A DNA stretch of 64,000 bases from Shewanella mangrovisoli (GTDB lineage Bacteria > Pseudomonadota > Gammaproteobacteria > Enterobacterales > Shewanellaceae), in the NCBI RefSeq assembly GCF_019457635.1, contig NZ_CP080412.1, positions 2,170,001 through 2,234,000 on the forward strand, written 5' to 3'. The translations under genes were made by a program, and so were the position numbers. Below, piece after piece: positions 2,691 through 40,216 of this stretch; position 1 is the first letter of the stretch, and the number at the start of each line of letters is the position of its first letter. The notes under the pieces were generated by a model. It saw only the letters and a list, made by a program, of their open reading frames with translations, ran no database searches and was not told the origin of the DNA.

Positions 2691-2978
2691 ATGTCTTACA
2701 CTATCCAAGCACAAACCCGCACTGAAATAGGGAAAGGTTCGAGCCGCCGCCTACGTCATGCAGGTAAAGTTCCTGCTGTTATCTACGGCGCAGGCAAAGA
2801 GCCAGTTTCTATTGTTTTTGATCACAAAGACATCATCAACATTCAAACTAACGAAGACTTCTACACTTCTGTTGTGACTATCGTTTTAGATGGCAAAGAA
2901 GTAGGTGTTCGTGCACAAGCTATGCAACGTCACGCGTTCAAGCCAATGATCGAGCACGTTGACTTCGTTTACGCTTAA
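2691..2978 (+). CDS. rplY: 50S ribosomal protein L25
   Basis: Binds 5S rRNA in the large ribosomal subunit. The ATG at 2691 gives 95 aa ([19 protein letters not shown]...), matching the single-domain gammaproteobacterial L25 of about 94 aa rather than the longer CTC form. The family motif [20 protein letters not shown] is clear. An in-frame extension back to 2577 exists but would put the promoter and leader hairpin inside the gene, so it is rejected. A strong bidirectional terminator follows directly. It is monocistronic. Confidence 0.96.
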
Positions 2979-2991
2979 TCGCGTGATTGAA

Positions 2992-3022
2992 GCAAAAAAG
3001 CGCCTATAGGGCGCTTTTTTTG
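2992..3022 (+). terminator. bidirectional terminator between rplY and tamB
   Basis: GCGCC (3000-3004) pairs with GGCGC (3010-3014). An A-run lies before it and a T-run after it, so it can stop rplY on the plus strand and tamB on the minus strand. Confidence 0.85.
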
Positions 3023-3047
3023 TGGCTGTTTTTTAACGTACAAAAGT

Positions 3048-3076
3048 ATCCCCGCGCAACATGGCTACGCGGGGGA
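3048..3076 (-). terminator. second hairpin at the tamB end
   Basis: CCCCGCG (3050-3056) pairs with CGCGGGG (3068-3074), just after the tamB stop on the minus strand, followed on that strand by ATACTTTTG. A GC-rich stem with a short T-run; probably the first tamB terminator. Confidence 0.5.
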
Positions 3077-3079
3077 GTA

Positions 3080-14100: not shown

Positions 14101-15081
14101 TTTAAGATTGAGGACGACAAGGGCAAGTTAGTGGCTCAGGGGCGGGTACTCGATACCCTAAAGGCCGAGTTACAGGGCGTGGTCGCTAAGGCGATTCGTC
14201 AAGTGGCGGATAAGGGGATTGAAAAGGAAGCGCTCACCGAGTGGTCCTTTGGCGACTTACCGAAACAATTTGAGCAGCGTAAGGGCAACTATCAAGTTCG
14301 GGCTTTCCCTGCACTAATTGACAATAAAGACTCAGTTGCTATCAAATTATTTGATGATGAATTTGAGGCGCAGGCGGCGCACCGTCAGGGTCTACGTCGC
14401 TTGTTGTTACTCAATATTCCATCGCCGGTAAAACACCTGCAACAGGCACTGCCTAACAAGGCAAAACTGGCGATGTATTTCAATCCATTTGGTCAAGTGC
14501 AAATTCTGATTGATGACATCATTACCGCAGCCGTGCAGCAATTGCTCGATGAAAAGGCGCTGGATGTGCGCGATGCTGCTCAGTTCGAGCAGGCCAAGGA
14601 TTGGGTGCGCCAAGAGCTGAACCCTACCGCCGAGCAAATCGCCCTAAAAGTGGAGCAAATTTTGACGCTCTACCAAGGCATTAAAAAGCGGACCAAGGGC
14701 AAAATTAGCTTAGATATCGCTTTTGCGATGAGTGATATTCAAAGTCAATTAGACCAATTAGTGTTCAAGGGATTCGTCGAAGCCTGTGGTTGGAATCGCC
14801 TAGCGGATGTGGCGCGTTACTTAAAGGCGATTGAAACCCGTATCGACAAGTTGCCCGTGGATCCGACCCGTGACCGTTTGCATATGCAGAGTATCACTAA
14901 AGTGCAGGAGGCCTTAGCGGCGCAGCTTGCTAAGGTGCCACGCTCGCAACCCGTGCCTGCGGCACTGATTGAAGCCCGTTGGATGATTGAAGAATACCGC
15001 GTGTCTTGCTTTGCACAGGCGCTGGGAACGGCTTATCCCATCTCGGAAAAGCGTATTTTAAACCATATCTTGCTGAGTTAA
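11200..15081 (+). CDS. hrpA: ATP-dependent RNA helicase HrpA
   Basis: DEAH-box RNA helicase, 1293 aa (E. coli HrpA is 1300). Walker A GETGSGKTT at residues 99-107, DEAH at 196-199, SAT motif (IIITSATID) and QRQGRCGRVGPG (motif VI) are all present, followed by HA2, OB-fold and the long HrpA-specific C-terminal region (DUF3418). In E. coli HrpA rescues stalled ribosomes by acting on mRNA. The start is not ATG: TTG at 11200 or TTG at 11206 are the options, and an in-frame TAG at 11188-11190 excludes anything further upstream. It stands alone and is followed by a strong terminator. Confidence 0.96.
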   Translation: MVLNSDKHPLSSDFLKQCFQSDASRIRRRLFKLNKEADSDKKTQELAKLAEQAQAAFEKVEQRLKARPKIQYPDNLPVSGMREEIAKAISENQVVIIAGETGSGKTTQLPKICLELGLGSRGFIGHTQPRRLAARSVATRVAEELQSPLGEVVGFKVRFADALKSESYIKLMTDGILLAELTSDRYLEQYDTIIIDEAHERSLNIDFILGYLKQILKKRPDLKIIITSATIDVERFCKHFNNAPIIEVSGRTYPVETRYRPLVQDTEADLDQIEGIFAAVDELVAEGLGDILIFMNGEREIRDTAEQLNRRNYRDTEILPLYARLSYGEQSKVFSNHTGRRIVLATNVAETSLTVPGIRYVIDPGTARISRYSYRTKVQRLPIEPISQASANQRQGRCGRVGPGICIRLYDEADFNSRPAFTDPEILRTNLASVILQMLAIGLGDIAAFPFIEPPDPRHIRDGFLLLEELQAVKQQKGNIVLTPLGRQLSQIPVDPRLARMVVESHQQGCLQEVLVIAAGLSIQDPRERPMDRKQASDEAHRRFADPHSDFVSWVNLWQHLKEQQKELSASQFRKKCRDEYLAYLRVREWQDLYTQLKQAVHDLKWRLNDTPANYDALHRALLSGLLSHIGFKDNNNEYLGARNRKFFVFPGSPLAKKGPKWIMAAELTETSKLFARCCAKIEPEWLEPLAAHLIKKNHLEPHFEAKQGSVIAFENQVLYGLTVVHRRRVQYGPINPVEAREIFIRSALAEGQLQTKEAFFIANQKLLEDVEALEHKSRRRDILVDEQVLMDFYEPRIPEGIYNAPKFFSWWKEARRTQPDLLDFNKSLLMQRSADHISALDFPDTWHKGNIRLQLSYHFDPAASDDGVSVHIPVALLNQIDDTDFDWLVAGMREEKCVALIKSLPKGLRRNFVPAPDYARACVQAMQPFSASLLDAMCKQLLRMSGTRVNPEDFDVTQMPAHLQMNFKIEDDKGKLVAQGRVLDTLKAELQGVVAKAIRQVADKGIEKEALTEWSFGDLPKQFEQRKGNYQVRAFPALIDNKDSVAIKLFDDEFEAQAAHRQGLRRLLLLNIPSPVKHLQQALPNKAKLAMYFNPFGQVQILIDDIITAAVQQLLDEKALDVRDAAQFEQAKDWVRQELNPTAEQIALKVEQILTLYQGIKKRTKGKISLDIAFAMSDIQSQLDQLVFKGFVEACGWNRLADVARYLKAIETRIDKLPVDPTRDRLHMQSITKVQEALAAQLAKVPRSQPVPAALIEARWMIEEYRVSCFAQALGTAYPISEKRILNHILLS

Positions 15082-15151
15082 TGATGTTGATACATTACTG
15101 ATTGAATCTGTAGATTCAGTGAGTTGAGCGCAACGCGTCATCTTTAGCATT

Positions 15152-15182
15152 AAAAGCCGAACCTTAGGGTTCGGCTTTTTTA
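15152..15182 (+). terminator. hrpA terminator
   Basis: AGCCGAACC (15155-15163) pairs with GGTTCGGCT (15168-15176), flanked by AAAA before and TTTTT after. Classic intrinsic terminator. Confidence 0.85.
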
Positions 15183-15808
15183 TTGCCCACTTTCACCTAA
15201 CTACCATTAGCCGCGACAAACTTGTACTTACTGCGTAGATTTTTACTATGGGCTATCGCTACAGGCTATCGCAGGTCGCTAACCCCAAAGGACAAAGCTG
15301 GTGGCGAATAAATTAGCCGAAACGACTTTTAAAAGACCTAAAAATTGATGGGTCAGTTAGCCAATACGCTAGAGGATTTAGCAGTATCTTGAGTGAGTTA
15401 ACGCCTTGACGCAGATGTTAAACCGATTTTGCCGTGGATAATTGGTAATTTGTTCCTTCCTTTACCATCTCCCAATACTCCTTAAGGAATATTTTGTTTA
15501 AATTTTGTGCGGTTTCCTTGCTTAGCGCCTCTCTCTTTTCCATGCTTTAGCAATTGGTTAATAAAAAAATATAACCAATCAATCGATTTACAATCTAAAA
15601 AAACGCTTAAAAACCATGATCTAACTAAATCTATCGCCAAATTGATGATCTGGATCAAGCATCAAAGGGTTTACCGATTTGGAGGTATACAGTTTGTTAA
15701 CACCTTAACGCTATGATCATTTCGTGGATCAAAGATGTAATTGAGATACCTATAAATCCTGCATTGGTCAGAGCAATCCATCACAGGAACGAACCTCTTG
15801 GAGGACGC
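15183..15808. other. long intergenic region upstream of the nap operon
   Basis: About 630 bases with no convincing gene. The only open frame (15507-15716) has no ribosome site and no recognisable sequence. The right half is AT-rich and holds the FNR-type site at 15645-15658, and a NarP-like half heptamer TACCTAT at 15747-15753. The left half shows nothing I can support. Confidence 0.6.
15645..15658 (+). promoter_or_regulatory. FNR/CRP-type site upstream of napE
   Basis: ATGAT-CTGG-ATCAA matches the FNR consensus TTGAT-N4-ATCAA at 9 of 10 defined bases. A TATACA -10-like box follows at 15686-15691, putting the site near the class II activator position (about -45). CRP, which in Shewanella controls much of anaerobic respiration, recognises a related sequence, so either protein could bind. 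Confidence 0.65.
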
Positions 15809-15967
15809 ATGAGTGCTAACAGCGCAGCAGAAAAATCCTTAGAACTGAAAATTTTTATCTTTTTAACCGTATTTCTCGCCCCCCTCTTATCCGTGTTGTT
15901 GGTGAGTGGATTGGGATTTGCCATATGGTTTAGCCAAATCTTCACCGGCCCGCCGGGTGCAGGTTGA
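15809..15967 (+). CDS. napE: NapE, small membrane protein of periplasmic nitrate reductase operon
   Basis: 52 residues, one hydrophobic span (about 14-42). It carries the NapE/TorE pattern: ELKIFIFLTVFLAPLLSVLL, then GFAIWF and a GPPG tail. Function in the Nap system is not settled. The ATG has an excellent Shine-Dalgarno (GGAGGA, 15800-15805). It is the first gene of napEDABC and lies 44 bases before napD. Confidence 0.88.
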   Translation: MSANSAAEKSLELKIFIFLTVFLAPLLSVLLVSGLGFAIWFSQIFTGPPGAG

Positions 15968-16011
15968 GGCCTAAAGAATAATAACAACAGCATGAATAAG
16001 CGGAGTGTCGG

Positions 16012-16269
16012 ATGAGCAAAGAGCTTCATATCACGAGTCTAGTGGTGCAAGTCATGCCACACAAAATGGCGGATGTTAGGCAACACATTATGGCGATTGA
16101 AAATGCCGAACTCTCTGTTAATAACGAAGTGAAACTCGTCGTCGTACTTGAAGGTGACTCCCAACGTGCCTTGATGGACGGTATCGAACAGATTAATGCC
16201 ATTCCTGGCGTCTTGTCCGCCACTATGGTTTACCACCAGAGTGAAGAGCTCGAAGAGGGTGAAGAATGA
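16012..16269 (+). CDS. napD: NapD, NapA-specific chaperone
   Basis: 85 residues with the ferredoxin-like NapD fold pattern ([21 protein letters not shown] and [15 protein letters not shown]). NapD binds the Tat signal of NapA and holds back export until the molybdenum cofactor is in place. An acidic tail (EELEEGEE) is present. The stop overlaps the napA ATG as ATGA (16266-16269), so translation is probably coupled. Confidence 0.94.
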
Positions 16270-18761
16270 ACATGAATAGACGTGACTTTATCAAAGCCAA
16301 TGCGGTGATTGCAGCAGCGGGCGCAGCGGGCTTAGCGCTGCCGGCATCGGCGAGCAACTTAATCACCAGCTCAGAACAAACCAAATTAGAGTGGAACAAA
16401 GCCCCATGCCGCTTCTGTGGTACGGGTTGCTCCGTGATTGTCGCGACCCGCGAGGGCAAAGTGGTTGCCACCCACGGCGATGCAAACAGCGAAGTAAACC
16501 GCGGCCTTAACTGTATTAAAGGTTACTTCCTGTCGAAAATTATGTACGGCAGCGATCGTTTAACCACGCCAATGCTCAGAATGACCGATGGCAAGTACGA
16601 TAAGCACGGTGAATTCACTCCCATTAGTTGGGATAGCGCCTTCGATATCATGGCGCAGAAATGGAAAGAAACCTTAAAAGCCAAAGGCCCGACCGCGGTT
16701 GGGATGTTTGGCTCGGGCCAGTGGACCGTTTGGGAAGGCTATGCCGCGGTTAAGCTGATGAAGGCAGGCTTTGGCTCTAACAACATCGACCCGAATGCGC
16801 GCCACTGTATGGCGTCTGCCGTTGTCGGCTTTATGCGTACCTTCGGTATCGATGAGCCTATGGGCTGTTACGATGATATGGAAGCGGCCGATGCCTTTGT
16901 GCTTTGGGGTTCCAACATGGCTGAAATGCACCCGATTTTATGGACTCGGGTCACCGATCGCCGTTTAAGCGCATCCCATGTGAAGGTCGCAGTTTTATCG
17001 ACGTTTGAACATCGCTCCTTCGACTTGGCAGATTTACCTATAGTATTTACGCCGCAAACCGACTTAGCCATCCTGAACTTTATCGCCAACTACATCATTC
17101 AAAACGATAAAGTGAACTGGGACTTTGTGAAGAAGCACGTGAACTTCCGCCAAGGTACTACGGATATCGGCTACGGTTTACGTCCAACCCATCCGCTGGA
17201 GCAGAAAGCCAAGAACGTGAAAACGGCAGGGGATTCAACTCCGATTGATTTCGATACCTTTAAGGCCTTTGTCGCCGAATATACGGTGGAGAAGGTCAGC
17301 AAGATGTCGGGTGTGCCTGAGGCTAAACTCATCGAATTGGCCAAACTCTATGCTGATCCCGAGACGAAAGTCACCTCTTTCTGGACCATGGGCTTTAACC
17401 AACATACCCGTGGTGTATGGTGTAACAACCTGATTTATAACATTCACTTACTGACAGGTAAGATTTCAACGCCCGGTAACAGCCCGTTCTCGTTAACCGG
17501 TCAGCCTTCTGCCTGTGGTACGGCTCGCGAAGTGGGAACCTTCTCCCACCGTTTACCTGCCGACATGGTGGTAACAAACCCAGAGCATAGAAAACACGCC
17601 GAAGAAATTTGGAAGATCCCCAGTGGCATTATTCCGCCAAAACCCGGTTATCACGCCGTAGAGCAAAACCGCCGCTTAAAAGATGGCGACTTGAACTGCT
17701 ATTGGGTGCAAGTGAACAACAATATGCAGGCGGGGCCGAACATCAACGAGGAAGGCTTACCTGGCTATCGTAATCCTGCCAACTTTATTGTGGTATCCGA
17801 TGCCTATCCCACAGTCACGACCCAGGCTGCGGACTTAATTTTGCCAACCGCCATGTGGGTTGAGAAAGAGGGCGCCTATGGTAATGCCGAGCGTCGTACT
17901 CAATTCTGGCATCAAATGGTGCAGGCGCCGGGCGAATCCCACTCGGATCTGTGGCAGTTGATGGAGTTCTCTAAGCGCTTTACGACCGACGAAGTCTGGT
18001 CGAAGGAAGTCTTAGCGGCGAATCCACAATTTAAGGGCAAAACCTTATTTGAAGTGCTGTACAAAAACGGCAATGTCGATAAGTTCCCGCTGGCCGATAC
18101 CGATCCTAAGTATTTAAACAACGAAGCGAAATATTTTGGCTTCTATGTCCAAAAAGGCCTGTTTGAAGAATACGCCACCTTTGGCCGTGGCCATGGTCAC
18201 GATTTAGCACCTTTCGATGCCTACCACGAAGCCCATGGTATTCGCTGGCCGGTGGTCGATGGTAAAGAAACCAAATGGCGTTTCCGTGAGGGCAGCGATC
18301 CTTACGTCAAACCTGGCTCAGGCTTTGAGTTTTACGGTAAACCCGATGGCCGCGCAGTGATTTACGCCTTGCCCTTCGAGCCGCCCGCAGAATCGCCAGA
18401 CACTGAATACGATATGTGGTTATCCACCGGACGGGTGCTCGAACATTGGCATTCAGGTTCGATGACTCAACGCGTGCCAGAGCTTTATCGTGCCTTCCCC
18501 GATGCAGTGTGTTTTATGCACCCAGAAGATGCGAAAAAACGCGGCTTACGCCGTGGTGACGAAGTGCGCGTGGTGTCTCGCCGCGGTGAAATTAAAACCC
18601 GTGTCGAAACCCGTGGCCGCAACAAACCGCCTGTGGGACTCGTGTTCGTACCTTGGTTCGATGCCAGTCAGCTCATTAACAAAGTCACCTTGGATGCGAC
18701 AGATCCACTGTCAAAACAAACCGACTTTAAGAAATGCGCCGTGAAAATCGTCAAGGTATAA
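16266..18761 (+). CDS. napA: NapA, periplasmic nitrate reductase catalytic subunit
   Basis: Reduces nitrate to nitrite in the periplasm. 831 aa with a Tat signal ([16 protein letters not shown], cut after ASA). The N-terminal [4Fe-4S] site has Cys48, Cys51, Cys55 and Cys83, with the electron-transfer Lys85 in CIKGYF. Cys181 (ARHCMASA) is the expected molybdenum ligand. The full bis-MGD reductase length is present with no break. It sits between napD (4-base overlap) and napB (10 bases). Confidence 0.97.
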
Positions 18762-19265: not shown

Positions 19266-19853
19266 ATGTTAGATAAACTCAAAAAGATCTGGCAAGTTCT
19301 CAATCGTCCGAGTGTGCACTACAGTTTAGGGTTTTTAACCTTAGGTGGCTTTGTGGCGGGGGTGATCTTCTGGGGGGGCTTTAACACCGCGCTTGAAGCC
19401 ACCAACAAAGAAGCCTTCTGTATCGGTTGCCATGAAATGGAAAATAACGTCTATCAAGAGTTACAGTCGACTATCCATTTCACGAACCGCAGTGGTGTGC
19501 GTGCGACTTGTCCTGACTGCCACGTACCGCACAACTGGACCGATAAGATTGCTCGTAAGATGCAGGCATCGAAAGAAGTGTGGGGTAAAGTGTTTGGTAC
19601 CATCAATACCCGCGAAAAGTTTGAGAACAAACGTCGCGAGCTGGCCGAACATGAATGGGAGCGGTTAAAGGCAAACGACTCGCTTGAGTGCCGTAACTGC
19701 CATAACTTTACCTACATGGACTTTACCAGACAGTCGCCACGCGCCGCCCAGATGCACTCGACATCCTTGGCCAGTGGTGAGAAAACCTGTATCGATTGCC
19801 ATAAGGGGATTGCCCATCATCTTCCCGATATGGCAGGGGTTGAAGGCTTCTAA
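19266..19853 (+). CDS. napC: NapC, tetraheme quinol dehydrogenase
   Basis: NapC/NirT-family membrane-anchored cytochrome c that passes quinol electrons to NapB. 195 aa, one N-terminal membrane anchor (about 17-40) and four hemes: CIGCH (52-56), CPDCH (82-86), CRNCH (142-146), CIDCH (175-179). In Shewanella the related CymA can supply the Nap system; a dedicated NapC is the mark of the nap-alpha operon. It is the last gene of the operon, followed by a terminator. Confidence 0.95.
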
Positions 19854-19877: not shown

Positions 19878-19913
19878 CCAAAGGCCAAGTGCTCTCCACA
19901 CTTGGCCTTTTTA
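19878..19913 (+). terminator. nap operon terminator
   Basis: AAGGCCAAGTG (19881-19891) pairs perfectly with CACTTGGCCTT (19899-19909), followed by a T-run. Strong intrinsic terminator right after napC. Confidence 0.9.
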
Positions 19914-20673
19914 TGGCGTAGATAAAGCGTATGCCGCATAAGGTGGGATTTTGTTCGCTATCGCCTTTTCTGGCTCGTTTCAGCCCTAAAACTAGATAAG
20001 TTTGTCGTCAGGTGTGCAAGATGAATTGTCATTGTTTCCCCAGTGACTCGCCGCCTATTTATTTCATAAGAAGCATCCCTATAGGCTCGATGACGGCATC
20101 TGCTGTATATGGATGTACGAATGTCGCGTTCACATGGCCAATGATGTTCCCAACATCATAGTGGCATTTCCCATATCCCTATGGGGCAGATGTAAAAGAG
20201 CTGCTATGCCGCCAACGGTCACTGTTGCAACAATGCCAATCCTAGCTATCCCTCTAGCTGTTAGCTCAGCTAAAAAGAAATTGCCCCATTCCTGATTTCG
20301 GTTCGTTAGCTCAATCGAAAATTCCCACTCCAGTTGCCATACAAATTCTCATCTAGTTACCTATGTTTGGTTCTACCATAAATCGGCTAACAATGTACGG
20401 GTATACAGTCATATTTAAATTTAGGTGTTTCGGTATGATTTTTAGACAAAATCAGTGTGCATTAACTCCATTTGCAATAAATAAAACGCTATAAAATCAA
20501 ATGACTATAGTGGCTGACTTTTAGTTAATAGGTTTGAAAAACGCGCATGCGCGTTTTTCCAGATGGTGTATTTGGCAGAAAGCTGATAAGTTCTTTGCAT
20601 ACAGATACTTAATCGTGCGCGTTTTCATTGGTTCAACGAGGTAAACGCGCATGCGCACTAATAAAATAATGAA
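19914..20673. other. non-coding region between nap operon and the IS element
   Basis: About 760 bases without a gene I can support. The plus-strand frame 20113-20295 has no ribosome site. A minus-strand frame ending at 20130-20132 stays open for about 63 codons up to about 20340 and would encode a hydrophobic stretch, but it lacks an early start codon. Nothing resembling an integron integrase was seen on either strand. The right part is AT-rich and holds the palindrome at 20537-20558 and a second copy of its core at 20643-20656. Confidence 0.55.
20537..20558. terminator. perfect palindrome, terminator-like
   Basis: A 22-base perfect palindrome: arm AAAAACGCGCA at 20537-20547 and its complement to 20558. 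With A-runs and T-runs on both sides it would act as a bidirectional terminator. The core AAACGCGCATGCGC is repeated at 20643-20656, next to the IS left end, which is unusual for a plain terminator. Confidence 0.6.
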
Positions 20674-20721
20674 ATGGACACCCCTCCTATACTGAGAAAG
20701 TCAGTTTAAAAGGAGACCGTC

Positions 20722-21744
20722 ATGAGTGATATTTATACAATCGGAATTGATTTAGCCAAGTCAGTTTTTCAATTATGTGCGTTTGATAAGGCAGGGAAAA
20801 AACTAGTAAATAGAGCCTTAAGAAGAAATAAAGTCATTAAGTTTTTAAGCAATATAGCCCCTTGTCTTATAGGAATGGAAGCCTGTGCCAGTTCTCATTA
20901 TTGGGCTCGAGAAATAAGGAAGCTAGGCCATGAAGTCAGGCTCATGCCACCTCAGTATGTAAAGCCTTACGTAAAGACAAATAAGAACGATATGGCTGAT
21001 GCTGAAGCGATTTGTGAAGCTGTTCGCCGACCAACGATGCGATTTGTTTCCGTTAAAAGTGAAGAGCAACAAGCTTTATTGCTGCTTCATCGAGAAAGAG
21101 AAGGCGTAATCAGAGACCGTACCGCATTAATCAATAGAATCAGGGCAAGCCTTCAAGAATTTGGTGTGAGTGTTCCTGCAGGAAGATTTCAGCTAAGAAA
21201 ATGGTTTAGAGAAGGTTTTAGCTTGGTAGAGTATCAGTTGCCAAAGCTGCTGGTTGGGCACATTAAATTAATGCAAACACGTTTAAGAGAGCTTGAACAG
21301 TATGCGGAATATTTGGATAAGCAGATAGATCTCGCGAGTGAAGTCAGTGATGAGTGTCAGAAGGTCAGGGGTATCCCTGGTGTTGGTCGCCTAACCTCAT
21401 CCGCATTAGTTGCCAGTATTGGTGATGCAAAAGCGTTTTCATCAGGGCGCCAGTTATCCGCTTGGATGGGATTAGTGCCAAGTCAGCACTCGAGTGGAGG
21501 TAAGTCACTGCTGCTAGGTATCAGTAAGCGAGGAGATACCTACTTAAGACGTATGTTTATCCATGGTGCTAGAGCAGTGATGAGACATTTGAAAGAAGGA
21601 AAACCGTTCTTTGGATGGGTAACCTCGTTGCTCAAGAGAATGCATAAAAATAAAGTGATTGTAGCGTTAGCTAATAAACTGGTTCGTATCTCTTGGGCTG
21701 TATTGGCCAAAGAAGAAAATTTTAGCGTAGAACGAACCTATTAA
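20722..21744 (+). CDS. IS110 family (IS1111 group) DEDD transposase
   Basis: 340 aa. The N-terminal RuvC-like domain has the DEDD acidic residues: Asp10 (IGIDLAK), Glu53 (IGMEAC), Asp90 and Asp93 (NKNDMADAEAI). A coiled central part (about 170-215) and the C-terminal Transposase_20 domain (RGIPGVGRLTSSALVASIGD, then the GLVPSQHSSGGK region with its catalytic serine) follow. Intact, with Shine-Dalgarno AGGAG before the ATG. IS110/IS1111 recombinases are now known to be guided by an RNA encoded in the element's non-coding end. Confidence 0.95.
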   Translation: MSDIYTIGIDLAKSVFQLCAFDKAGKKLVNRALRRNKVIKFLSNIAPCLIGMEACASSHYWAREIRKLGHEVRLMPPQYVKPYVKTNKNDMADAEAICEAVRRPTMRFVSVKSEEQQALLLLHREREGVIRDRTALINRIRASLQEFGVSVPAGRFQLRKWFREGFSLVEYQLPKLLVGHIKLMQTRLRELEQYAEYLDKQIDLASEVSDECQKVRGIPGVGRLTSSALVASIGDAKAFSSGRQLSAWMGLVPSQHSSGGKSLLLGISKRGDTYLRRMFIHGARAVMRHLKEGKPFFGWVTSLLKRMHKNKVIVALANKLVRISWAVLAKEENFSVERTY

Positions 21745-21969
21745 GTGAAAAGTACATCCAGTTTTGCTAAGTGAAAGCAAGTGATGACAATACAGGTTAG
21801 ACCGTGACTTGGAAATTCTGTGCCTAACATCGTTTCTTAGAAAACGATAAAATGATTAGAGCCAAGCCAGCGAAGTTCATCGGGGATCAAGAGCAAGTCT
21901 CTTACAAGGAATCCGAATAGATGGCTGCAAAACCACATTTGTTATCGTCTGATTTCTCTTGCAAAAAAC
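21745..21969 (+). ncRNA. predicted seekRNA/bridge RNA region of the IS1111 element
   Basis: Non-coding stretch between the transposase stop and the right inverted repeat, where IS1111-group elements are known to encode their guide RNA. Visible structure: hairpin ATCGTTT (21829-21835) with AAACGAT (21842-21848), and a longer-range GTTAG/CTAAC pairing around 21796-21828. TGTTAT at 21940-21945 matches the first bases of the right flank (21984-21989), a possible target-specifying segment, though 6 bases is weak. Exact RNA ends are unknown. Confidence 0.5.
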
Positions 21970-21994
21970 GGGGTGTCCATAGATGTTATATGCC

Positions 21995-22348
21995 ATGAAT
22001 AGAATCGACGCCATCACGAAGATTGAGGCCTCTTTGAAAAGCTGTGAACCTCAAGTTATTGCTCCTAAAGGAAGGAGCTATGAGGAGTATGTCAAACAGC
22101 TTTCGGAACAGTTGCTTGAATCTGTCATTGACCCAGTTTTAGTTGAAGTTACGTCGACAATAATTGAAGGTGGTGATTTCGAATCATATAAACCCGCGAC
22201 CGTTTGGGGAATAGCTAGAATAGGCATTAATTGGTTGATAACAATTGAAGGGGAGCCGGAGTTTGCGCTTGCATTTGGAGTGGATCCTTTAGACTTGAAA
22301 ATGCATGGTTGCTCTTCAAGCGATGTTTTAGCGGAATGGTGCAGCTAG
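21995..22348 (+). CDS. cassette 1: hypothetical protein
   Basis: 117 aa from the ATG at 21995; a longer in-frame start at 21983 overlaps the attC core and is less likely. I do not recognise the family. The protein is acidic, without signal or membrane segment (NRIDAITKIEASLKS, then a helical part and a probable beta pair around WGIARIGINWLITIEGEPEF). It is the first cassette after the IS and has no obvious ribosome site. Confidence 0.7.
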   Translation: MNRIDAITKIEASLKSCEPQVIAPKGRSYEEYVKQLSEQLLESVIDPVLVEVTSTIIEGGDFESYKPATVWGIARIGINWLITIEGEPEFALAFGVDPLDLKMHGCSSSDVLAEWCS

Positions 22349-22350
22349 GC

Positions 22351-22450
22351 ATATAACAAGCTGTTGAATAGTGGGCAAAATTCAGTTGGCTGATTTCGCT
22401 CCGCTCAAGATTATAGCCAACTAAATTTTGCCAATTAACAGGGCGTTATG
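22351..22450 (+). other. attC site 1
   Basis: Left core TATAAC, right core GTTATG (22445-22450). Strong inner arms: GGCAAAATT (22374-22382) with AATTTTGCC (22424-22432), and AGTTGGCT (22384-22391) with AGCCAACT (22415-22422), interrupted by a single unpaired base as expected for attC. CTGTT and AACAG form the next outer pair. Confidence 0.88.
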
Positions 22451-22463
22451 TTTCAGGACAGTC

Positions 22464-22898
22464 ATGAGTGAACATTTGGAATTTGAGCAATTATCCGAAA
22501 TAGATGATTTGCTGAAACTAAAAGTTAAGGGCGAAAGTTGCGGCTTTGCCGGTACTGCCGATTGCTACGTTAACGAAGCCCAGTTTCAAGCGTTTTGCGC
22601 ACAACTGATTGGCTTTCCCAAGAAACGAGAGGATCGCGTTCAGTTTTGCTCTGGTGAGAGTGATCAGTTGTCTTACTTCGATATTAAGTTCTCTTGCATT
22701 GATAGTTCTGGGCGCATACTTGCAGCTATACAAATCGTATCTAGAGGTACGCGTTATCCTCGAGAGAAGGTATGTTTTGCCGCTTCGTTCTCATTTAAGG
22801 TAGAACCTGCCGCATTCGATCGTTTTGTAAAAGGCTTATCTCGGGTTGCGGTTATTAATAATGTGGGTTTAAAAGCGGCCCTAGTAAATGAAACATAA
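22464..22898 (+). CDS. cassette 2: hypothetical protein
   Basis: 144 aa from the ATG at 22464; the longer frame from 22428 begins inside attC 1. Family not recognised. It looks like a small soluble alpha/beta protein, with an acidic N-terminus (SEHLEFEQLSEIDDLL) and several Cys residues (GESCGFAGTADCYV). No signal peptide or known motif. The stop lies next to the left core of attC 2. Confidence 0.72.
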   Translation: MSEHLEFEQLSEIDDLLKLKVKGESCGFAGTADCYVNEAQFQAFCAQLIGFPKKREDRVQFCSGESDQLSYFDIKFSCIDSSGRILAAIQIVSRGTRYPREKVCFAASFSFKVEPAAFDRFVKGLSRVAVINNVGLKAALVNET

Positions 22899-22981
22899 GA
22901 ATACGCATCACGCGCAGCCTGCCGGCCGCTGGGATGTCAACCCGCTGCGCGGCTCGTCGCCGTTGTGCTTTGCGTTATATG
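22888..22981 (+). other. attC site 2
   Basis: Right core GTTATAT (22974-22980). Arms GCGCAGC (22912-22918) and GCTGCGC (22944-22950) pair perfectly. The left core reads ATAAG rather than the usual TAAC, a diverged R'' box that could lower recombination. Confidence 0.7.
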
Positions 22982-22992
22982 GCGGAAAAGTT

Positions 22993-23319
22993 ATGAACCT
23001 GCTCTTCGTATGCAGTGAGAATAGATTGCGGAGCCCGACTGGAGAAGAAGTCTTTTCTCAGTACGAAGGGGTCAATGCAATAGGAGCAGGAACGAATGCT
23101 GACGCCGAGACGGTCGTAAGCGGAGATTTGGTTGAGTGGGCAGACGTTATAATCGTCATGGAAAAGACCCACAGGAATAAGGTCTCAAAGAAATTCAAAG
23201 ACTTGCTTCATGGAAAAAAGCTTGTGTGCCTAGATATACCAGATAACTATGACCGAATGGACCCTGAGCTTGTCCGGTTACTACAAAACAGAGTGGCCAA
23301 ACATGTTCGCTTGCGATAG
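22993..23319 (+). CDS. cassette 3: low-molecular-weight tyrosine phosphatase-like protein
   Basis: 108 aa from the ATG at 22993 (MNLLFVCSENRLRSP). The P-loop has the C(X)5R(S/T) form: Cys7, Arg13, Ser14. The later LVCLDIPDNYDRMDPEL holds a candidate general-acid Asp. It is shorter than classical LMW-PTPs (about 150 aa), matching the short phosphatase-like proteins often found in bacterial gene cassettes. Cytoplasmic; substrate unknown. The longer in-frame reading to 22888 runs through attC 2 and is rejected. Confidence 0.8.
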   Translation: MNLLFVCSENRLRSPTGEEVFSQYEGVNAIGAGTNADAETVVSGDLVEWADVIIVMEKTHRNKVSKKFKDLLHGKKLVCLDIPDNYDRMDPELVRLLQNRVAKHVRLR

Positions 23320-23322
23320 GCC

Positions 23323-23389
23323 ATATAACAAGAAACTGCAGCCGACCGCTACGCGTCGGCTGAGTTAAGTTCAGTATCGAGGTTAAATT
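23323..23389 (+). other. attC site 3
   Basis: Left core ATATAAC, right core GTTAAAT (23382-23388). Stem GCCGAC (23341-23346) with GTCGGC (23355-23360), and a short outer pair ACTG/CAGT. A compact site of about 67 bases. Confidence 0.8.
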
Positions 23390-23782
23390 TTGAGTCAAAA
23401 GGAATTGGATGATTCATTAATTCAGGCGGCAGACTGTGACGTCAAATCAGCTCGAGAGTTGCTTGCTGCTGGGGCGAATCCAAATGGCATGCCGTTGATT
23501 ATGGCAATTCAGTGTGGTGCTGAGGATATAGTCTCTCTTTTCATAAAAGCCGGTGCTGACTTAAATTCTAGTTATTCTGATACAACACCTCTAATCAGAG
23601 CAGTCACTGCAGGCTTCCCTAATATCGTGAAGTTGCTTATTGTTAACGGAGCTAAACATGACTTAACAGATACCTCGGGTAAAACAGCGGAACAAAGGTT
23701 ATCTGAATGCTCTATGCCTCGTTTAAATGAACACAATAGAAAGTTAATTACTGGGTACCTAAGTGGCGCAAAGCAAATATAA
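23390..23782 (+). CDS. cassette 4: ankyrin-repeat protein
   Basis: 130 aa, beginning at TTG (23390) right behind the attC 3 core, with GAGG of the core region serving as a possible ribosome site. Three ankyrin-like repeats are visible: SARELLAAGANPN, AEDIVSLFIKAGADLN and FPNIVKLLIVNGAKHDLTD. Ankyrin proteins bind other proteins; the partner is unknown. No signal or membrane segment. The stop codon lies within the left core of attC 4. Confidence 0.8.
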   Translation: MSQKELDDSLIQAADCDVKSARELLAAGANPNGMPLIMAIQCGAEDIVSLFIKAGADLNSSYSDTTPLIRAVTAGFPNIVKLLIVNGAKHDLTDTSGKTAEQRLSECSMPRLNEHNRKLITGYLSGAKQI

Positions 23783-23858
23783 CAATCGCCATCAAAAGCG
23801 CGCCCTTTGGGCGCTCGACTCGCAACAAGTTGCTCGCGTTTGTGGCGGGCGTTATAAA
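23777..23858 (+). other. attC site 4
   Basis: Left core ATATAAC followed by TCGCCA; right side TGGCGGGC followed by core GTTATAA (23851-23857). Both core and spacer arms pair (TATAAC/GTTATA, CGCCA/TGGCG). Inner hairpin GCGCCC/GGGCGC. Confidence 0.88.
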
Positions 23859-23871
23859 TCAGGAGAGATGT

Positions 23872-24264
23872 GTGCACGTTGAACCATGGAAAGGACTCAA
23901 AGAACATCTAGGTCAGAACAGATTTTTAGCCAATCTTTCATACTCTTATGGTTTACTAACAATCCAAATTGAATACAGAAAACTGGATAGTTCTTATGTC
24001 GTTATGTTTAGATCACCTACTTTATTCAGGGTAATGGATGAAGGCGATCTTTTGAGATTCCAGAGTCAGTTTGAAGGGCCTGTATTTGCTAGCAGTTTCA
24101 TATTCGAGTTGTTTGACACGGAGTTAATCAATTTTTGTTATGAAGAAAGAGATCGCTCTATGGACAAAGAGAAATATTGTCATTTTGCGGTTGTATCAGA
24201 CGACGATTTTGTTGAAATAGTTACATACGATGATGAACCAACAATCACGGCGATTGATTTATAA
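23872..24264 (+). CDS. cassette 5: hypothetical protein
   Basis: 130 aa from the GTG at 23872, chosen because AGGAGAG lies five bases before it; the longer frame from 23830 is inside attC 4. I do not recognise the family. It is a soluble, acidic, beta-rich protein (LSYSYGLLTIQIEYRKLDSS, then DDDFVEIVTYDDEPTITAID) with no signal peptide. Gene context gives no function. Confidence 0.72.
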   Translation: MHVEPWKGLKEHLGQNRFLANLSYSYGLLTIQIEYRKLDSSYVVMFRSPTLFRVMDEGDLLRFQSQFEGPVFASSFIFELFDTELINFCYEERDRSMDKEKYCHFAVVSDDDFVEIVTYDDEPTITAIDL

Positions 24265-24337
24265 CAAGCCGCGTCATTTGCAACCTGCGGCTGCAGCGAC
24301 GCTCACAAGTTCGCGCGCATGCACGGGTCGTTAAGCG
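24259..24337 (+). other. attC site 5
   Basis: Left core TTATAAC, right core GTTAAGC (24330-24336). Inner pairing is less regular than in sites 1 and 4 but includes GCGCGC-rich arms. The preceding gene stop is within the left core. Confidence 0.75.
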
Positions 24338-24352
24338 TAAAAGAGAAACAGA

Positions 24353-25036
24353 ATGTCATTGCAAGCTAAAGTCAGTAGAGGAGAATACGAAGGCACTCCT
24401 TTGTTTCCTCATCTACACGAGGATGGAATGTATGTCGCAACCCGTACCAGGTACAAGGCAGATTATGTGCGGGTAAAGAACCTTGAACAATTAGAAGCTC
24501 TCGTTCAACAAGGTTATGGTGCAAGAATGTCAAATCCTGATATTCCAAATGCGCCTTCGTTCATAGTTAACAAAAATATTGAAGTCAGTGATCAGGCAAA
24601 TAACTTATCTAAAGCTTTGCCTAAAGCTATAGAGGATCTCGATCTTGACCCTGATTCAGTGACAAAACGTCGTGCTGAACAATCACTACTCCGAGCATTT
24701 TTGTTAAATGGTCGCGAGCACGCACCTTGCATATTATGTAGCCGTGATTTACCTGAAAACATGTTAGTGGCTGCGCATATAAAGAAAAGGTCAAAATGCA
24801 GCACAGAAGAAAAGCTGGATTTTGGGAATGTTGCAGCCCTAATGTGTAAATTAGGCTGTGACGATCTTTTCGAAAAAAAATATGTTTATGTTTCAAATGG
24901 GCGGCTAGTCGGTAACTTTAACACAACTCTTACAGAGCCTTTGAGGGATGCAATAAAAGCTTTAGAGGGCAATACTGTTTCCAATTGGAGTAGCAGCGAA
25001 AGGTACTATGCTTGGCATGCAAAACAATCAACATAA
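24353..25036 (+). CDS. cassette 6: HNH-type nuclease-like protein
   Basis: 227 aa. The C-terminal half resembles an HNH endonuclease domain: Cys126-x2-Cys129, then AAHIKKRSK with His142, then FGNVAALMCKLGCDDLFE (Asn159, Cys165/Cys169, Asp170-171). The usual pattern is AHI...N..LLC..HD.LFD; here Cys-Asp replaces His-Asp, so activity is uncertain. The N-terminal part (about 1-120) is unknown. Such domains occur in restriction-like and defence proteins, but no methyltransferase or partner gene is adjacent. It is the longest cassette gene here. Confidence 0.7.
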   Translation: MSLQAKVSRGEYEGTPLFPHLHEDGMYVATRTRYKADYVRVKNLEQLEALVQQGYGARMSNPDIPNAPSFIVNKNIEVSDQANNLSKALPKAIEDLDLDPDSVTKRRAEQSLLRAFLLNGREHAPCILCSRDLPENMLVAAHIKKRSKCSTEEKLDFGNVAALMCKLGCDDLFEKKYVYVSNGRLVGNFNTTLTEPLRDAIKALEGNTVSNWSSSERYYAWHAKQST

Positions 25037-25038
25037 AG

Positions 25039-25088
25039 CGCTTAACAATTACAGCCAGCAGGACAAACCTACGCTGTAGGCGTTAACC
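25039..25088 (+). other. attC site 6
   Basis: Short site of about 50 bases: left core CTTAAC, right core GTTAACC (25082-25088), with TTACAGC and GCTGTA as inner arms. Confidence 0.78.
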
Positions 25089-25101
25089 CCCTAGGAGAAT
25101 T

Positions 25102-25629
25102 ATGAAGCATCTAAGCATATTTTTAATTCTTGTATTTACTGCTTTTAGCCAATCTACATTCGCTTGTTCCTTTGGAGGTGCGGACCTTTTTAAACCCACC
25201 TTGGAAGGCTGGGAAGAACATCCTGGACCAGCTCAAAAAGGTGAGAAAGGAGATTACTGGGAAAAAGTTCCAGCTCCGGTAGTCAAGGTTTCAAGTATCA
25301 CAAGAGGTTTGGCTAAATCAGGCTGCTCGTGCGATGACGCAGGGGTTATCCTGTTAGAAATCTCGTTGCCGAAAGAATCGACCTATTCAATTGAAGAATT
25401 TGCTGTCTATTTCCGTGTTAAAGAGGGGCTGTTGCCGGATGCTATATTTCCTGACGTTCCGCTAGTTGGTGAGTATAAAGATGGGAAAATGACATTGTTA
25501 CTTGCGTGGCTGGATGGGCACCCATCGCGTCAAATACCTCTTGATTTAAAGGTAGAGGCATTCTTTATTACCAACAGCCTTAACATTGGTGAATCTACCA
25601 TATTCAATATTGTGGCAAGCAAGGGTTAA
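25102..25629 (+). CDS. cassette 7: secreted hypothetical protein
   Basis: 175 aa with a clear signal peptide (KHLSIFLILVFTAFSQ, cut near TFA-C). The mature protein starts with Cys, but the preceding residues are not a good lipobox, so a periplasmic protein is more likely than a lipoprotein. A CSCDD motif lies in the middle. Family not recognised. Shine-Dalgarno AGGAGA precedes the ATG. Its stop overlaps the remnant attC 7. Confidence 0.78.
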   Translation: MKHLSIFLILVFTAFSQSTFACSFGGADLFKPTLEGWEEHPGPAQKGEKGDYWEKVPAPVVKVSSITRGLAKSGCSCDDAGVILLEISLPKESTYSIEEFAVYFRVKEGLLPDAIFPDVPLVGEYKDGKMTLLLAWLDGHPSRQIPLDLKVEAFFITNSLNIGESTIFNIVASKG

Positions 25630-25647
25630 CAAGTGCAGGCGTTAGGA
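25625..25647 (+). other. attC site 7, reduced to its cores
   Basis: GTTAAC (25625-25630) and GTTAGGA (25641-25647) are only 10 bases apart, with no room for inner arms. It looks like an attC that lost its stem by deletion, fusing cassettes 7 and 8. Confidence 0.6.
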
Positions 25648-25653
25648 GACTAG

Positions 25654-26067
25654 ATTAGACTGGCTAAGGATTTAGCAAAAGCAGCATACTTTACTCTGTC
25701 GAATATGCGGCCATATTATGCACAATACTATGTAGATTGGGATCAAGCTCAAATTGAGCAAATGACACAAGAGCTTGTGAACTTTGATATTTTGTTTGAA
25801 GAAAAGCTTGTTGGTGTTGTTAGATTATCTTTTGACATTGAAGCGTGCTGGTTACGAGATTTACAAGTGGATCAGAGTTACCAGAATCGTGGGATTGGCT
25901 CAATCGCTATTGCTGAGGCAGAACGTCTGGCTAAAGAGCATGGCTTTCACATTTTGAAGCTTAAAGTGTTTAAAAATAGCCCTGCCGTTCATTTGTATAA
26001 GAGACAAGGGTTTGGTTTAACAAGTGAAGATGATCGGTTTTACTACATGAGCCGTGCCGTATCCTAA
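25654..26067 (+). CDS. cassette 8: GNAT acetyltransferase, probable ATT start
   Basis: Acetyl-CoA-dependent N-acetyltransferase. The acetyl-CoA loop is QNRGIGSIAIAEAE, and the C-terminal KLKVFKNSPAVHLYKRQGF motif is typical. The first ATG (25705) would drop the usual N-terminal strand and helix, yet the frame is open back to a TAG at 25651 and reads RLAKDLAKAAYFTLSNMRPYY, a normal GNAT N-terminus. AGGAG (25644-25648) lies five bases before an ATT codon at 25654, so ATT is either the start or a mutated ATG. From ATT the protein is 137 aa; from ATG 120. Substrate unknown. Confidence 0.72.
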   Translation: MRLAKDLAKAAYFTLSNMRPYYAQYYVDWDQAQIEQMTQELVNFDILFEEKLVGVVRLSFDIEACWLRDLQVDQSYQNRGIGSIAIAEAERLAKEHGFHILKLKVFKNSPAVHLYKRQGFGLTSEDDRFYYMSRAVS

Positions 26068-26152
26068 CAATCAAATTTTATCGTTAGCAAAAAGCGTTGG
26101 TGGCGCGTCAACCCACTGCGCGGTTTTCCGCGCTAAATTTAGGCGTTACCCC
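26062..26152 (+). other. attC site 8 (last of the array)
   Basis: Left core CCTAAC, right core GTTACCC (26145-26151). AAATTT arms pair next to the cores; GCGCGG/CCGCGC forms an inner hairpin. Confidence 0.78.
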
Positions 26153-26437
26153 ATAGACATTTTTACCCGAAATTCACCTGATACAGCTGACGTCCTGACA
26201 CGCCTTTGTTCCTTTCCACGCGTCTTGCTTCGGCTTGTATGAAACTTCAATACGTGAGGCACGTTCTTATCCAACGCATTTTAGTGGCGAGTATTAATCT
26301 TTATTATTCAATGCTTCATCTTTGCTGTGAAAGGTTGGTTGTATACGCCAAGCTAGGCTGAAACGTTATTTCTCTCCCATAAAAAAGGCGCTAGTGCGCC
26401 TTTTTGAAGAATAAATCTGGGGAGTAAAGCCATTCGC
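26153..26437. other. gene-free end of the cassette region
   Basis: About 285 bases between the last attC and the DUF2897 gene. No gene is supported. It could be the remains of one more cassette: ACGTTATTT near 26363 resembles a right core, but no paired left core is evident. It ends with the terminator at 26382-26405. Confidence 0.5.
26382..26405. terminator. bidirectional terminator at the end of the kds/kdn operon
   Basis: AAAAAGGCGC (26382-26391) and GCGCCTTTTT (26396-26405) form a perfect 10-bp stem with a TAGT loop. It serves the minus-strand operon and would also stop transcription from the cassette array. Confidence 0.9.
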
Positions 26438-26674
26438 TTAGGGTTTATCTTGCTCAACTTGGGTTGATTTATCGCCATTCTCAATTGTCACATCCGCAGA
26501 CTTATCGGCATCGGGTGAGGGATTGGCGCGATTATCGGTCTTTAACTGTTTCTCTTTATCGTGCTGACCAAACTGTGGCAGTTTGAATTTGGCACTGTAT
26601 TTCAGTGCGGCAAGATTGCTGGCAATCACCCCGACCACCAAAATAATAATGATCCACACTTCTAAGCTCGACAT
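26438..26674 (-). CDS. DUF2897-type small membrane protein
   Basis: 78 aa. One N-terminal membrane span (VWIIIILVVGVIASNLAALKY) followed by a hydrophilic tail rich in Asp, Lys and Ser. This layout matches the DUF2897 family, of unknown function. AAGGAG precedes the ATG. It is 28 bases downstream of kdsB and probably the last gene of that operon. Confidence 0.78.
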   Translation of the reverse strand: MSSLEVWIIIILVVGVIASNLAALKYSAKFKLPQFGQHDKEKQLKTDNRANPSPDADKSADVTIENGDKSTQVEQDKP

Positions 26675-38115: not shown

Positions 38116-39021
38116 GTGAGAATTAATGATCTTAGGCTGTTTTTGTTGGTCGTTGAGTTAGGCAGTTTTGCTGCCGCGGCCAGTTCGATTGGGAGCCCGC
38201 GGGCTTCGGTCAGTCGCCGTATCGGTGAGTTAGAGGCGGATCTGGGGACTAAGCTGTTTACCCGCACGACACGCCAATTGTCGCTGACACCCACAGGCGA
38301 AAACTACCATCAGCAGTTGATGGAGATTATCCCAAGGCTCGAATCCTTGAATGAGTCGGTCAAAAATCAACGTAATATGCCAACGGGATCGGTCAAGCTA
38401 GGTTTAGTTGGCGATGCCGATGTTGTGACCCATCATTTATTGCAGGACTTTTTAAAAAATTACCCTCTTATTACCTTAGAAACCCATGTAAGTAATCTTG
38501 GTTATCACGATATCTTAAATTATGGTTTGGATGCCTGTATTCATATCGGGAATATCAAAGATAATTCTTTTGTCGCTCGACCGTTAATGCGCGTGTGTCG
38601 CAAATTATATGCAAGCCCTGATTATATTGCGGCCCATGGTATGCCAACATCACTGGATGATCTCAGTCAACATGCATTAATGATCTATCGTTTACAAAAT
38701 GGTGAATTAGAAGATCGTTGGAAATTTAATTTAGGTGAATATCGAGTAAAAAGTCGACTGGTTTCTAACAGTAGCCAATATATTCGTCATGCCATTTTAA
38801 GTGGTGCAGGGATCAGTTTATTATCCGAATTAAGTGTGGTTGAACACTTGCAATTGGGTAATTTGGTTGAAGTTTTACCCGAGTATGAGGTTTACGTTGA
38901 CGATGCCTGGTTAGTCTATCCTAGCCGCAAAGGCATGACCCATGCGGCTCGGCTGCTAATCGATAGCTTAATTCATGAGGCGAGTAAGACACCGGATGTC
39001 ACATTGTCACAAAATTCGTGA
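38116..39021 (+). CDS. LysR-family transcriptional regulator
   Basis: 301 aa from the GTG at 38116, with GAGG five bases upstream; the GTG at 38110 overlaps that site and is less likely. The N-terminal winged helix-turn-helix reads FLLVVELGSFAAAASSIGSPRASVSRRIGELEADLGTKLF. A periplasmic-binding-like effector domain follows. It lies 85 bases before the RND operon and on the same strand, so it may control that operon or itself; the effector is unknown. Confidence 0.9.
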   Translation: MRINDLRLFLLVVELGSFAAAASSIGSPRASVSRRIGELEADLGTKLFTRTTRQLSLTPTGENYHQQLMEIIPRLESLNESVKNQRNMPTGSVKLGLVGDADVVTHHLLQDFLKNYPLITLETHVSNLGYHDILNYGLDACIHIGNIKDNSFVARPLMRVCRKLYASPDYIAAHGMPTSLDDLSQHALMIYRLQNGELEDRWKFNLGEYRVKSRLVSNSSQYIRHAILSGAGISLLSELSVVEHLQLGNLVEVLPEYEVYVDDAWLVYPSRKGMTHAARLLIDSLIHEASKTPDVTLSQNS

Positions 39022-39106
39022 CATTGATGTACCTTTTTTGATTATTGTCCAATAAATTCACCTCCTTTACTCTGTGCCGCCTTAGTCCTAGTTACAGGAA
39101 ATTGTG

Positions 39107-40216
39107 GTGAACAGAGTAAAACCAATCAAAATCGGAACGGGTTTGTGTTGTGCGGGCATTGCATTAGTGCTCGCAGGCTGTGGCAGCAGTGAAGACCAAA
39201 CCCTCACAACCTCAAAACGTCCGTTAGTACAAGTGATGGAACTGCCCGCAGCTGTCACGGATAAAGGTTACAAGTTTAGCGGCGTGTTGGAGTCGGAGAA
39301 TCGTGCGGATTTGTCCTTCCGAGTCCAAGGCGTCCTCGCTGAACTGTTGGCCGAAGAAGGAGTAGAGGTTACCAAGGGACAAGTGATTGCAAGGCTCGAT
39401 CCCCATGATTTTCAAGTCAGTGTTCTGGAGCTGACGGCTAAGTTGGATGAGGCGAAAACCGCCCATCAATTAGCAAAAATCGAACTGCAAAGGGTTAAAA
39501 GTGCGATTAATGACCGCGCGATTGCCAGCGTGAAGTTAGACCGTGCCGTGGCCGCCGAAGCGCGCGCGAAAGCGGGCGTTGAATTAGTCAGCCAGTCGCT
39601 GAAAAAAGCCCAGGATGCCCTGCGTTACACTGAGCTGACCGCGCCCTATGACGGTGTGGTGGGTAAAACCTTTGTCGATCAGCATGAACAAGTCAATGTT
39701 GGCACAACAATCCTGACCATTCATCGCCCAGAACGACTCAATGCGGTAGTGGATGTGCCCGAGAGCCAGATCTGGAACCTAAAACTTGGCACCGAAGGCC
39801 AAGTGACTTGGTTTAAGGGCACGGAAGCCGTACCCGCTGTAGTTGCCAAAATCGCGTCAGTGCCCGATCGCCTAAAGCGCACCTATGAGGTGACCTTTAA
39901 TCTAGCGCATGTTCCAAAACAGTTAGTCGCGGGCAAGGCGGTGAGTGTGGACGTCGCTCTGCCTTATGCTAGTGATAAACCTATCTATTGTATTCCTGCC
40001 ATGGCGGTTACGAGCCGCGAGAACCAACTTTATGTCAATCGTGTCATTGCCGAGCATGTGAGTGCGACTCCCGTGGAATCTGTGAGTCAGACCGACGATT
40101 CTTTATGCGTGACCGGCGGCTTAACCTCTGGTGAGCCCATCGTGATTGCGGGCGGCGCTTTTGTCGAAGAAGGCCAAGCTGTCACCATTTTACGTGGGGC
40201 GTCGGTTAAATCATGA
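39107..40216 (+). CDS. RND efflux periplasmic adaptor (membrane fusion protein), lipoprotein
   Basis: 369 aa from the GTG at 39107 (AGGAA six bases upstream; GTG 39104 is the alternative). Lipobox VLAGC with Cys25, so lipid-anchored in the inner membrane facing the periplasm. A lipoyl-like domain split around a coiled hairpin (about 95-180) and a beta-barrel domain follow: LSFRVQGVLAELL, YTELTAPYDGVVGK. It links the pump at 40213 to the outer-membrane channel at 43323. The stop overlaps the pump ATG by 4 bases. Confidence 0.93.
   Translation: MNRVKPIKIGTGLCCAGIALVLAGCGSSEDQTLTTSKRPLVQVMELPAAVTDKGYKFSGVLESENRADLSFRVQGVLAELLAEEGVEVTKGQVIARLDPHDFQVSVLELTAKLDEAKTAHQLAKIELQRVKSAINDRAIASVKLDRAVAAEARAKAGVELVSQSLKKAQDALRYTELTAPYDGVVGKTFVDQHEQVNVGTTILTIHRPERLNAVVDVPESQIWNLKLGTEGQVTWFKGTEAVPAVVAKIASVPDRLKRTYEVTFNLAHVPKQLVAGKAVSVDVALPYASDKPIYCIPAMAVTSRENQLYVNRVIAEHVSATPVESVSQTDDSLCVTGGLTSGEPIVIAGGAFVEEGQAVTILRGASVKS

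Follow-up and report, generated by a model that had tools for sequence, protein, structure and literature searches.

An eight-cassette array in Shewanella mangrovisoli as a probable copy of a dispersed integron unit carrying attI but no integrase gene

We analyzed a 64,000-nucleotide stretch (G000:C1:2170001-2234000, hereafter the window) of the 4.71-Mb single-contig genome of Shewanella mangrovisoli (G000), which harbors an array of eight gene cassettes and no integron integrase gene (intI). The array is probably one of many scattered copies of an integron unit that has no integrase, with cassettes that were likely inserted at attI by an integrase from elsewhere. Such a unit would consist of a left arm with a Shewanella attI, the eight cassettes and a conserved right end. 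This proposal draws on features apparent in the sequence, namely the attI, the pairing of cassette cores with their attC sites, common ends, many unlinked copies, versions with intact, damaged or no intI that start alike, and turnover of attI-proximal cassettes at sites lacking intI. An earlier note on this DNA had described eight co-oriented cassettes alternating with attC-like sites and lacking an integrase. Core pairing bore out this description, with seven sites plus one truncated, while the array's own attI, its defined ends and its membership among many units had escaped that note.

Results and discussion

The predicted unit reaches further left than its cassettes. A left arm of about 390 bp (20281..20667, + strand) starts with TTGCCCC at 20281, a left end common to intI-bearing and intI-less units, and closes with an attI (20643..20667, +) in which 25/25 nt up to the GTT equal the Shewanella attI given in PMC9892861. 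Inside this attI lies an IS110-family insertion sequence (IS; 20668..21982, +, outer limits deduced) with inverted repeats at 20674-20684 and 21970-21980 and a transposase gene (20722..21744, +; NF033542, 347.9 bits, cut-off 140). The element separates attI from cassette 1, and its junctions fit an insertion two bases before the GTT crossover, which is now found at 21985. Three other units (L044, L045 and L108) share the left IS junction at attI, and two of them (L045 and L108) also the right one, so that this IS appears to target attI. In the window copy it would have split attI from the crossover at a later stage, presumably impairing further cassette insertion. Behind the cassettes follows the conserved right end of about 70 bp (26142..26212, +). 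It terminates in TTGTTCC, placing the window among the five of 36 copies without the TGTCC that is present in the other 31. The window thus displays, on one strand, the left end at 20281, attI, the IS, the GTT at 21985 and the right end up to 26212, i.e. the order of the dispersed unit described below. Of the features of a complete integron, it has an attI at the array head, split by the IS, and no functional intI adjoining it.

The cassette array comprises eight genes in one orientation (+), located between nap-type genes, which end at 19853, and kdsB/kdn-type genes; these neighbors are what we take them to be from the translations of their open reading frames. GTTRRRY-type left cores were found at 21985, 22445, 22974, 23382, 23851, 24330, 25082 and 25641. 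In six of the eight cassettes the left core is the exact reverse complement of the start of the cassette's own attC, and in the remaining two it differs by one mismatch. These 2 mismatches in total compare with a mean of 15.4 in random pairings and were equalled by 39/200,000 shuffles, a statistic that tests the pairing and not the choice of sites, which were picked by eye. Folding of the bottom-strand DNA beat dinucleotide shuffles at 4/8 sites (z -4.6, -3.0, -3.2 and -2.5). An Rfam search returned nothing at gathering score.

A 150-bp attI segment (20519-20668) matched 87/129 genomes of the same genus (E <= 0.001), a single genome having as many as 12 matches. At most six candidate stretches were scored in each genome, so these match counts are lower bounds, and weaker matches may represent other attI types. 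For closer comparison we assembled 45 copies scoring above 85 bits from G000, G023, G126 and G038, the last represented by 7 of its 12 matches; 47 loci, fetched on the basis of earlier matches, had entered the set, and two (L179 and L191) without a left arm above 85 bits were dropped. GTT stood at the attI boundary in 40/45 copies, and the right end was likewise found behind attI, on the same strand and within 9 kb, in 40/45. A TTGCCCC-type left end occurred at a fixed distance in 29/45 copies and in 0/45 of a mirrored control. Nine of the copies belong to G000, and the window array is, as judged from these matches, one of at least nine scattered attI units without an intact integrase in this genome. 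Among all fetched loci, fifty units had both ends; their cargo measured between 0.5 and 5.5 kb, the median being 1.9 kb.

The family extends to plasmids and a prophage. Query 20380-20670 matched 21 plasmid records, including ones from Pseudoalteromonas, Moellerella and Enterobacteriaceae. The unit of a Moellerella plasmid (L048 6001-7340) carries a dfrA1 cassette behind the matched segment and that of an E. coli IncC plasmid (L049 6001-7459) a fosG cassette; no integron integrase was annotated in either of the two stretches read. The window array itself had no plasmid counterpart by megablast of 21900-26200. The 150-bp attI segment also matched a Shewanella prophage at two places. Shewanella prophage M16-3 (L254) carries an intI-bearing array at 38590-39950, with a TGCCCC end behind intI, and an intI-less array at 14471-17072, with the right end at 16995-17072.

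Some loci hold what appear to be decayed members, in which a degenerate, older half site similar to attI (about 75-149 of the model) lies beside a younger unit (L087 3242-3945, L045, L091, L107, L108 and L109). Some 555 bp beyond this half site, L087 and L107 show a weak right end.

Turning to the integrase, the absence of intI from the window, already stated in the earlier note, was confirmed by a tblastn search with the C-terminal part of the L006 IntI (best E = 1.3). A search of the wider genome, which that note had proposed, yielded a sole close relative, 2.4 Mb from the window and frameshifted near codon 26. Some other units retain the gene; most of the copies read lack it. An intact integron integrase lies inside the unit, directly downstream of the attI segment, in L083 (a S. 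xiamenensis plasmid) and L121 (G060), and a damaged intI in the same position in L006 (G000) and L108 (G118). L050 and L084 preserve only intI codons 1-53 and 1-52, respectively, and in L050 these codons are joined to DNA resembling the sequence that follows the intI stop. Versions with intI start some 101 bp beyond that stop, with the TGCCCCA that 13/21 aligned intI-less rows also show, and sequences outside this end are mostly unrelated between units. A shared end with unrelated outer flanks tentatively suggests that an intI-bearing mobile integron gave rise to the intI-less copies through internal deletions. Prophage M16-3 encodes an integrase with 96.9% identity to that of L083; the prophage enzyme is in turn 95.3% identical to the S. 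oneidensis one according to PMC9892861.

Two of these loci deserve separate mention. In L006 (4419-8086, about G000:C1 4630418-4634085) the damaged intI and attI are followed by a methyltransferase gene, a type I specificity-like subunit gene and the right end, so that the cargo of this unit is two large genes. A 287-aa tyrosine recombinase is encoded first behind attI in L121 (4870-5730), L033 (6443-7303) and L063 (1735-2595), from G060 and G082; the copies are 98.6-100% identical to each other and about 30% to IntI. We presume that it may stem from an IS91-type element inserted at the core, which would make it a candidate for moving DNA there.

Across the genus, 31 genomes had at least 5 attI-segment matches with a best E <= 1e-30, and 30 of them (all except G126) were searched for intI. 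A full-length relative of 91% or more was present in eight (G009, G013, G035, G060, G072, G100, G107 and G115), a damaged or partial one in five (G000, G050, G082, G118 and G119), and one genome (G023) had a relative at 46% only. The remaining 16/30 multi-copy genomes gave no intI match better than E = 2e-20; four of these are single-contig assemblies (G038, G041, G069 and G111) and several are drafts. The acting integrase would be of the SonIntIA type, delivered by a plasmid, a phage or another unit.

Comparison of orthologous sites revealed cassette turnover. G000, G023, G038 and G126 all carry the same final cassette at the nap locus, encoding a GNAT acetyltransferase (91-94% identity between the window and the others), and the four genomes share no further stretch of 150 bp or more there. 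The earlier note had named fixation of the same eight genes at this locus in all Shewanella as an outcome that would refute it; G023, G038 and G126 share the GNAT cassette alone. In the pair L129/L131 (G000 and G023) flanks and left arm are 95-96% identical and the distal 1.3 kb 99%, with different attI-proximal cassettes in between, and L139/L089 share the distal 0.6 kb and differ in the attI-proximal part. None of these loci gave an intI match at 1e-15. Five pairs that could be aligned in register converge or diverge at GTT (G|TT); the window/L137 pair was out of register and excluded from this count. Moreover, cassette 2 of the window is found directly behind the attI of an unrelated G044 locus (L041), with 97% identity and GTT junctions on both sides. 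Cassettes were thus likely inserted at orphan attI sites without a local intI, and, because the gene is absent from these sites, by an integrase acting in trans.

Several observations weigh against this proposal. The other 4/8 attC sites fold no better than shuffles (cassettes 2/3, z 0.3; cassettes 5/6, z -0.1; cassettes 7/8, no fold; cassette 8/end, z -1.1). Under a strict pattern, the left-end motif is missing from 16/45 copies, and TGCCCCA is exact in only 13/21 aligned intI-less rows. No target-site duplication was seen: the orthologous sites without a unit, in G002, G006 and G097, have intergenic DNA too diverged to place the junctions. A search of 127 genomes for empty units, in which the right end would directly follow the left arm, used an exact pattern that would overlook variants and gave 30 matches in 28 genomes, 0 with both ends. 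This result counts against a simple model of a mobile empty platform, since free movement should leave some empty units behind. Among at most the top 25 gene clusters beside the units, none accompanied all of them, the largest being shared by 5/42 loci. Such five-locus clusters were an IS110 transposase and a GGDEF/EAL-like family; a tyrosine-recombinase cluster was found in 4 loci. The orthologous pair L119/L138 is identical and shows no turnover. Finally, the locus sets L087/L091/L045/L108 and L096/L101/L105 share no cargo of 150 bp or more, a difference that homologous recombination between units could also cause.

Such recombination between dispersed units and flanking repeats, swapping cargo without any integrase, is the strongest competing explanation, if an unlikely one. 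Left arms, right ends and two dispersed repeats next to the units (extL and extA, see below) are homologous between loci, neighbors are rearranged at such loci (nap/kdsB in G044, G074, G093 and G041), and some loci carry entirely different cargo, such as a Gabija system in place of attI units. However, the partial turnover retains distal cassettes and breaks at G|TT with only few shared bases before the junction. We regard it as rather improbable that every unit still owned intI when its cassettes entered and lost the gene later, making action in trans superfluous. In favor of this history, intI-bearing units do share the same left end, and G000 and G118 have a damaged intI. Yet the flank, left arm and attI of L129 and L131 match at 95% with no intI present, and their attI-proximal cassettes nevertheless differ, so that the intI-less state is most simply older than their split and the insertions came after it.

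Even less probable is a local origin, in which the array would be an ordinary cluster of attC sites lacking an integrase (CALIN), i.e. what is left of a local integron after its integrase and attI had decayed on the spot. The missing intI, the truncated attC between cassettes 7 and 8 and the split attI would suit such decay, and PMC9229058 describes both CALINs and lone orphan cassettes as common in Shewanella. Against it stand the attI identical to the published one, the left arm and right end common to unlinked copies, an architecture that contradicts decay in place, and the different attI-proximal cassettes at orthologous sites without intI.

The units might also be moved by strand-biased circularizing (SE) elements, which carry intA, cap, intB and srap, that is, two recombinases and two further conserved genes. 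This is the least probable explanation: one enterobacterial IncC record shows the order site-specific integrase/hypothetical/site-specific integrase/hypothetical, ending some 320 bp to the left of the attI segment (presumably SE genes, an assignment backed by PMC9345347), but a close relative of the second recombinase (72% or more) occurs in only 2/127 genomes and G000 has no match. Without a relative of the second recombinase, G000 does not have the full set of two recombinases and two further conserved genes, and we rejected SE elements as the general mover.

The integrase-free unit filled in trans accordingly remains our preferred reading of the array, and the contents of its cassettes were assigned as follows (all cassettes and attC sites on the + strand). 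Cassette 1 (21985..22444), delimited by core/attC pairing, encodes a protein without an accepted family and with a Pfam match only below the cut-off. The products of cassettes 2 (22445..22973), 5 (23851..24329) and 7 (25082..25640) have no Pfam match, that of cassette 7 showing a signal-peptide-like start by eye. Cassette 3 (22974..23381) encodes a short protein resembling low-molecular-weight phosphatases, with a weak match in the P-loop region (PF01451, 24.7 bits, cut-off 23.2), cassette 4 (23382..23850) ankyrin repeats (PF12796, 47 bits), cassette 6 (24330..25081) a protein with weak HNH similarity (PF13391, 12.5 bits, below the cut-off of 21) and cassette 8 (25641..26144) the GNAT acetyltransferase (PF00583, 59.7 bits). 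The earlier note had left cassettes 1, 2, 5 and 7 as unknowns, in line with these searches, and of its named products the ankyrin and GNAT proteins stand, the phosphatase has weak backing and the HNH protein falls below its cut-off. The defence-like roles it had suggested were not established, as PADLOC matched only the ankyrin (38 bits, a candidate family) and the HNH-like protein (about 15 bits).

Core pairing and folding agree for the attC sites of cassettes 1 (22351..22451), 3 (23323..23388) and 6 (25040..25088, a short site). Pairing is one base off for those of cassettes 2 (22893..22980, folded from 22894) and 4 (23777..23857). The sites of cassettes 5 (24259..24336) and 8 (26062..26151) complete the series together with the truncated remnant of cassette 7 (25624..25647, 24 bp, without a hairpin). 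Relative to L030 and L137, a few bases are missing from the start of the window's GNAT cassette, and the preceding attC is cut to 24 bp (25624-25705). The listed start of its gene is an internal ATG.

The surroundings of the unit are repetitive and rearranged. To its left lies extL (20000..20280, +), a dispersed intergenic repeat outside the unit, with 24 matching pieces in G000, 42 in G023, 23 in G126 and 25 in G038. We considered extL and extA as parts of the unit and rejected this assignment, as they are separate dispersed repeats that flank other cargo too. For instance, a complete Gabija pair (GajA, 1061.6 bits; GajB, 840.9 bits) lies between extL and extA in L175 (G000:C1:3666000-3675000, 2785-6371), and the corresponding site has attI units on both matching flanks in G126 and G023 and on one in G038. 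In L176 the same repeats enclose what we take to be LysR/MFS-type genes, at a site that holds attI units in G126, G023 and G038. Further left, alignment of the window with L029 and L030 delimited a short remnant (19981..19999, +) that likely stems from the left end of a unit formerly present here; the similar stretch in G023 and G038 continues into their own unit. The nap and kdsB neighbors (19911-19999 and 26216-26535) are adjacent in G000, G023, G038 and G126. In other close genomes they lie apart: some 24 kb separate them in G041, a single-contig genome, and the drafts G044, G074 and G093 have them on different contigs, which places the window unit, on this comparison, at a rearrangement boundary.

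With regard to known systems, the window qualifies as a CALIN in having at least 2 attC sites in a row and no integron integrase nearby. CALINs and their single-site counterparts (single attC sites lacking an integrase, SALINs) are frequent and scattered in Shewanella, as described in PMC9229058, and share with our array the cassettes with attC and the missing nearby integrase. The window cluster differs in having its own attI, in the conservation of its left arm and right end, and in belonging to a repeat family with intI-bearing members. The closest precedent is one integrase-less CALIN with its own attI in prophage M16-3 (PMC9892861), which has the same attI at the head of its array and, by our scan, also the right end. 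It is reported there as a single prophage case; dispersal, common ends and cassette turnover are findings of the present analysis. The chromosomal or mobile SonIntIA integron resembles the units in attI and integrase type, full-length relatives of the L083 integrase (at least 91%) being present in 8/127 genomes, and differs from the window copy, which has no integrase, in a genome whose only close relative is frameshifted.

IS110-family elements inserted in attC form the IS1111-attC group. The window element is like them in residing at an integron recombination site and in having a transposase and terminal repeats, and is set apart from the group by its position in attI, about two bases before the GTT. 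Integron mobilization units (IMUs) are bracketed, non-autonomous, integron-bearing units linked with Shewanella and bounded by two identical copies resembling miniature inverted-repeat transposable elements (MITEs), a feature in which they differ from the units described here. We found no description of dispersed, bounded attI units in the open-licence PubMed Central literature.

Conclusions

More broadly, and with the odds leaning somewhat against us, we put forward a Shewanella distributed integron, in which an attI platform with fixed ends and no integrase of its own would transpose, multiply to about 10 copies per genome, travel on plasmids and prophages into other genera and be filled in trans by a passing SonIntIA-type integrase. 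The units would spread as mobile elements with the ends TTGCCCC...TGTCC, a step we propose more cautiously than the filling in trans. Because a complete Gabija system is enclosed by the repeats that also flank the units, at a site where relatives carry attI units, the same mover may also carry whole defence systems.

The usual description of an integron is a single platform whose one attI lies next to the integrase gene; orphan attI units part the landing site from the enzyme. The unit family would explain the origin of many of the scattered CALINs and SALINs of Shewanella, where one integrase could load cassettes at many sites. It would also offer a route for cassettes such as dfrA1 and fosG, seen in two plasmid copies, to travel in units without an integrase gene, and it makes the action of integron integrases in trans on chromosomal attI copies testable.

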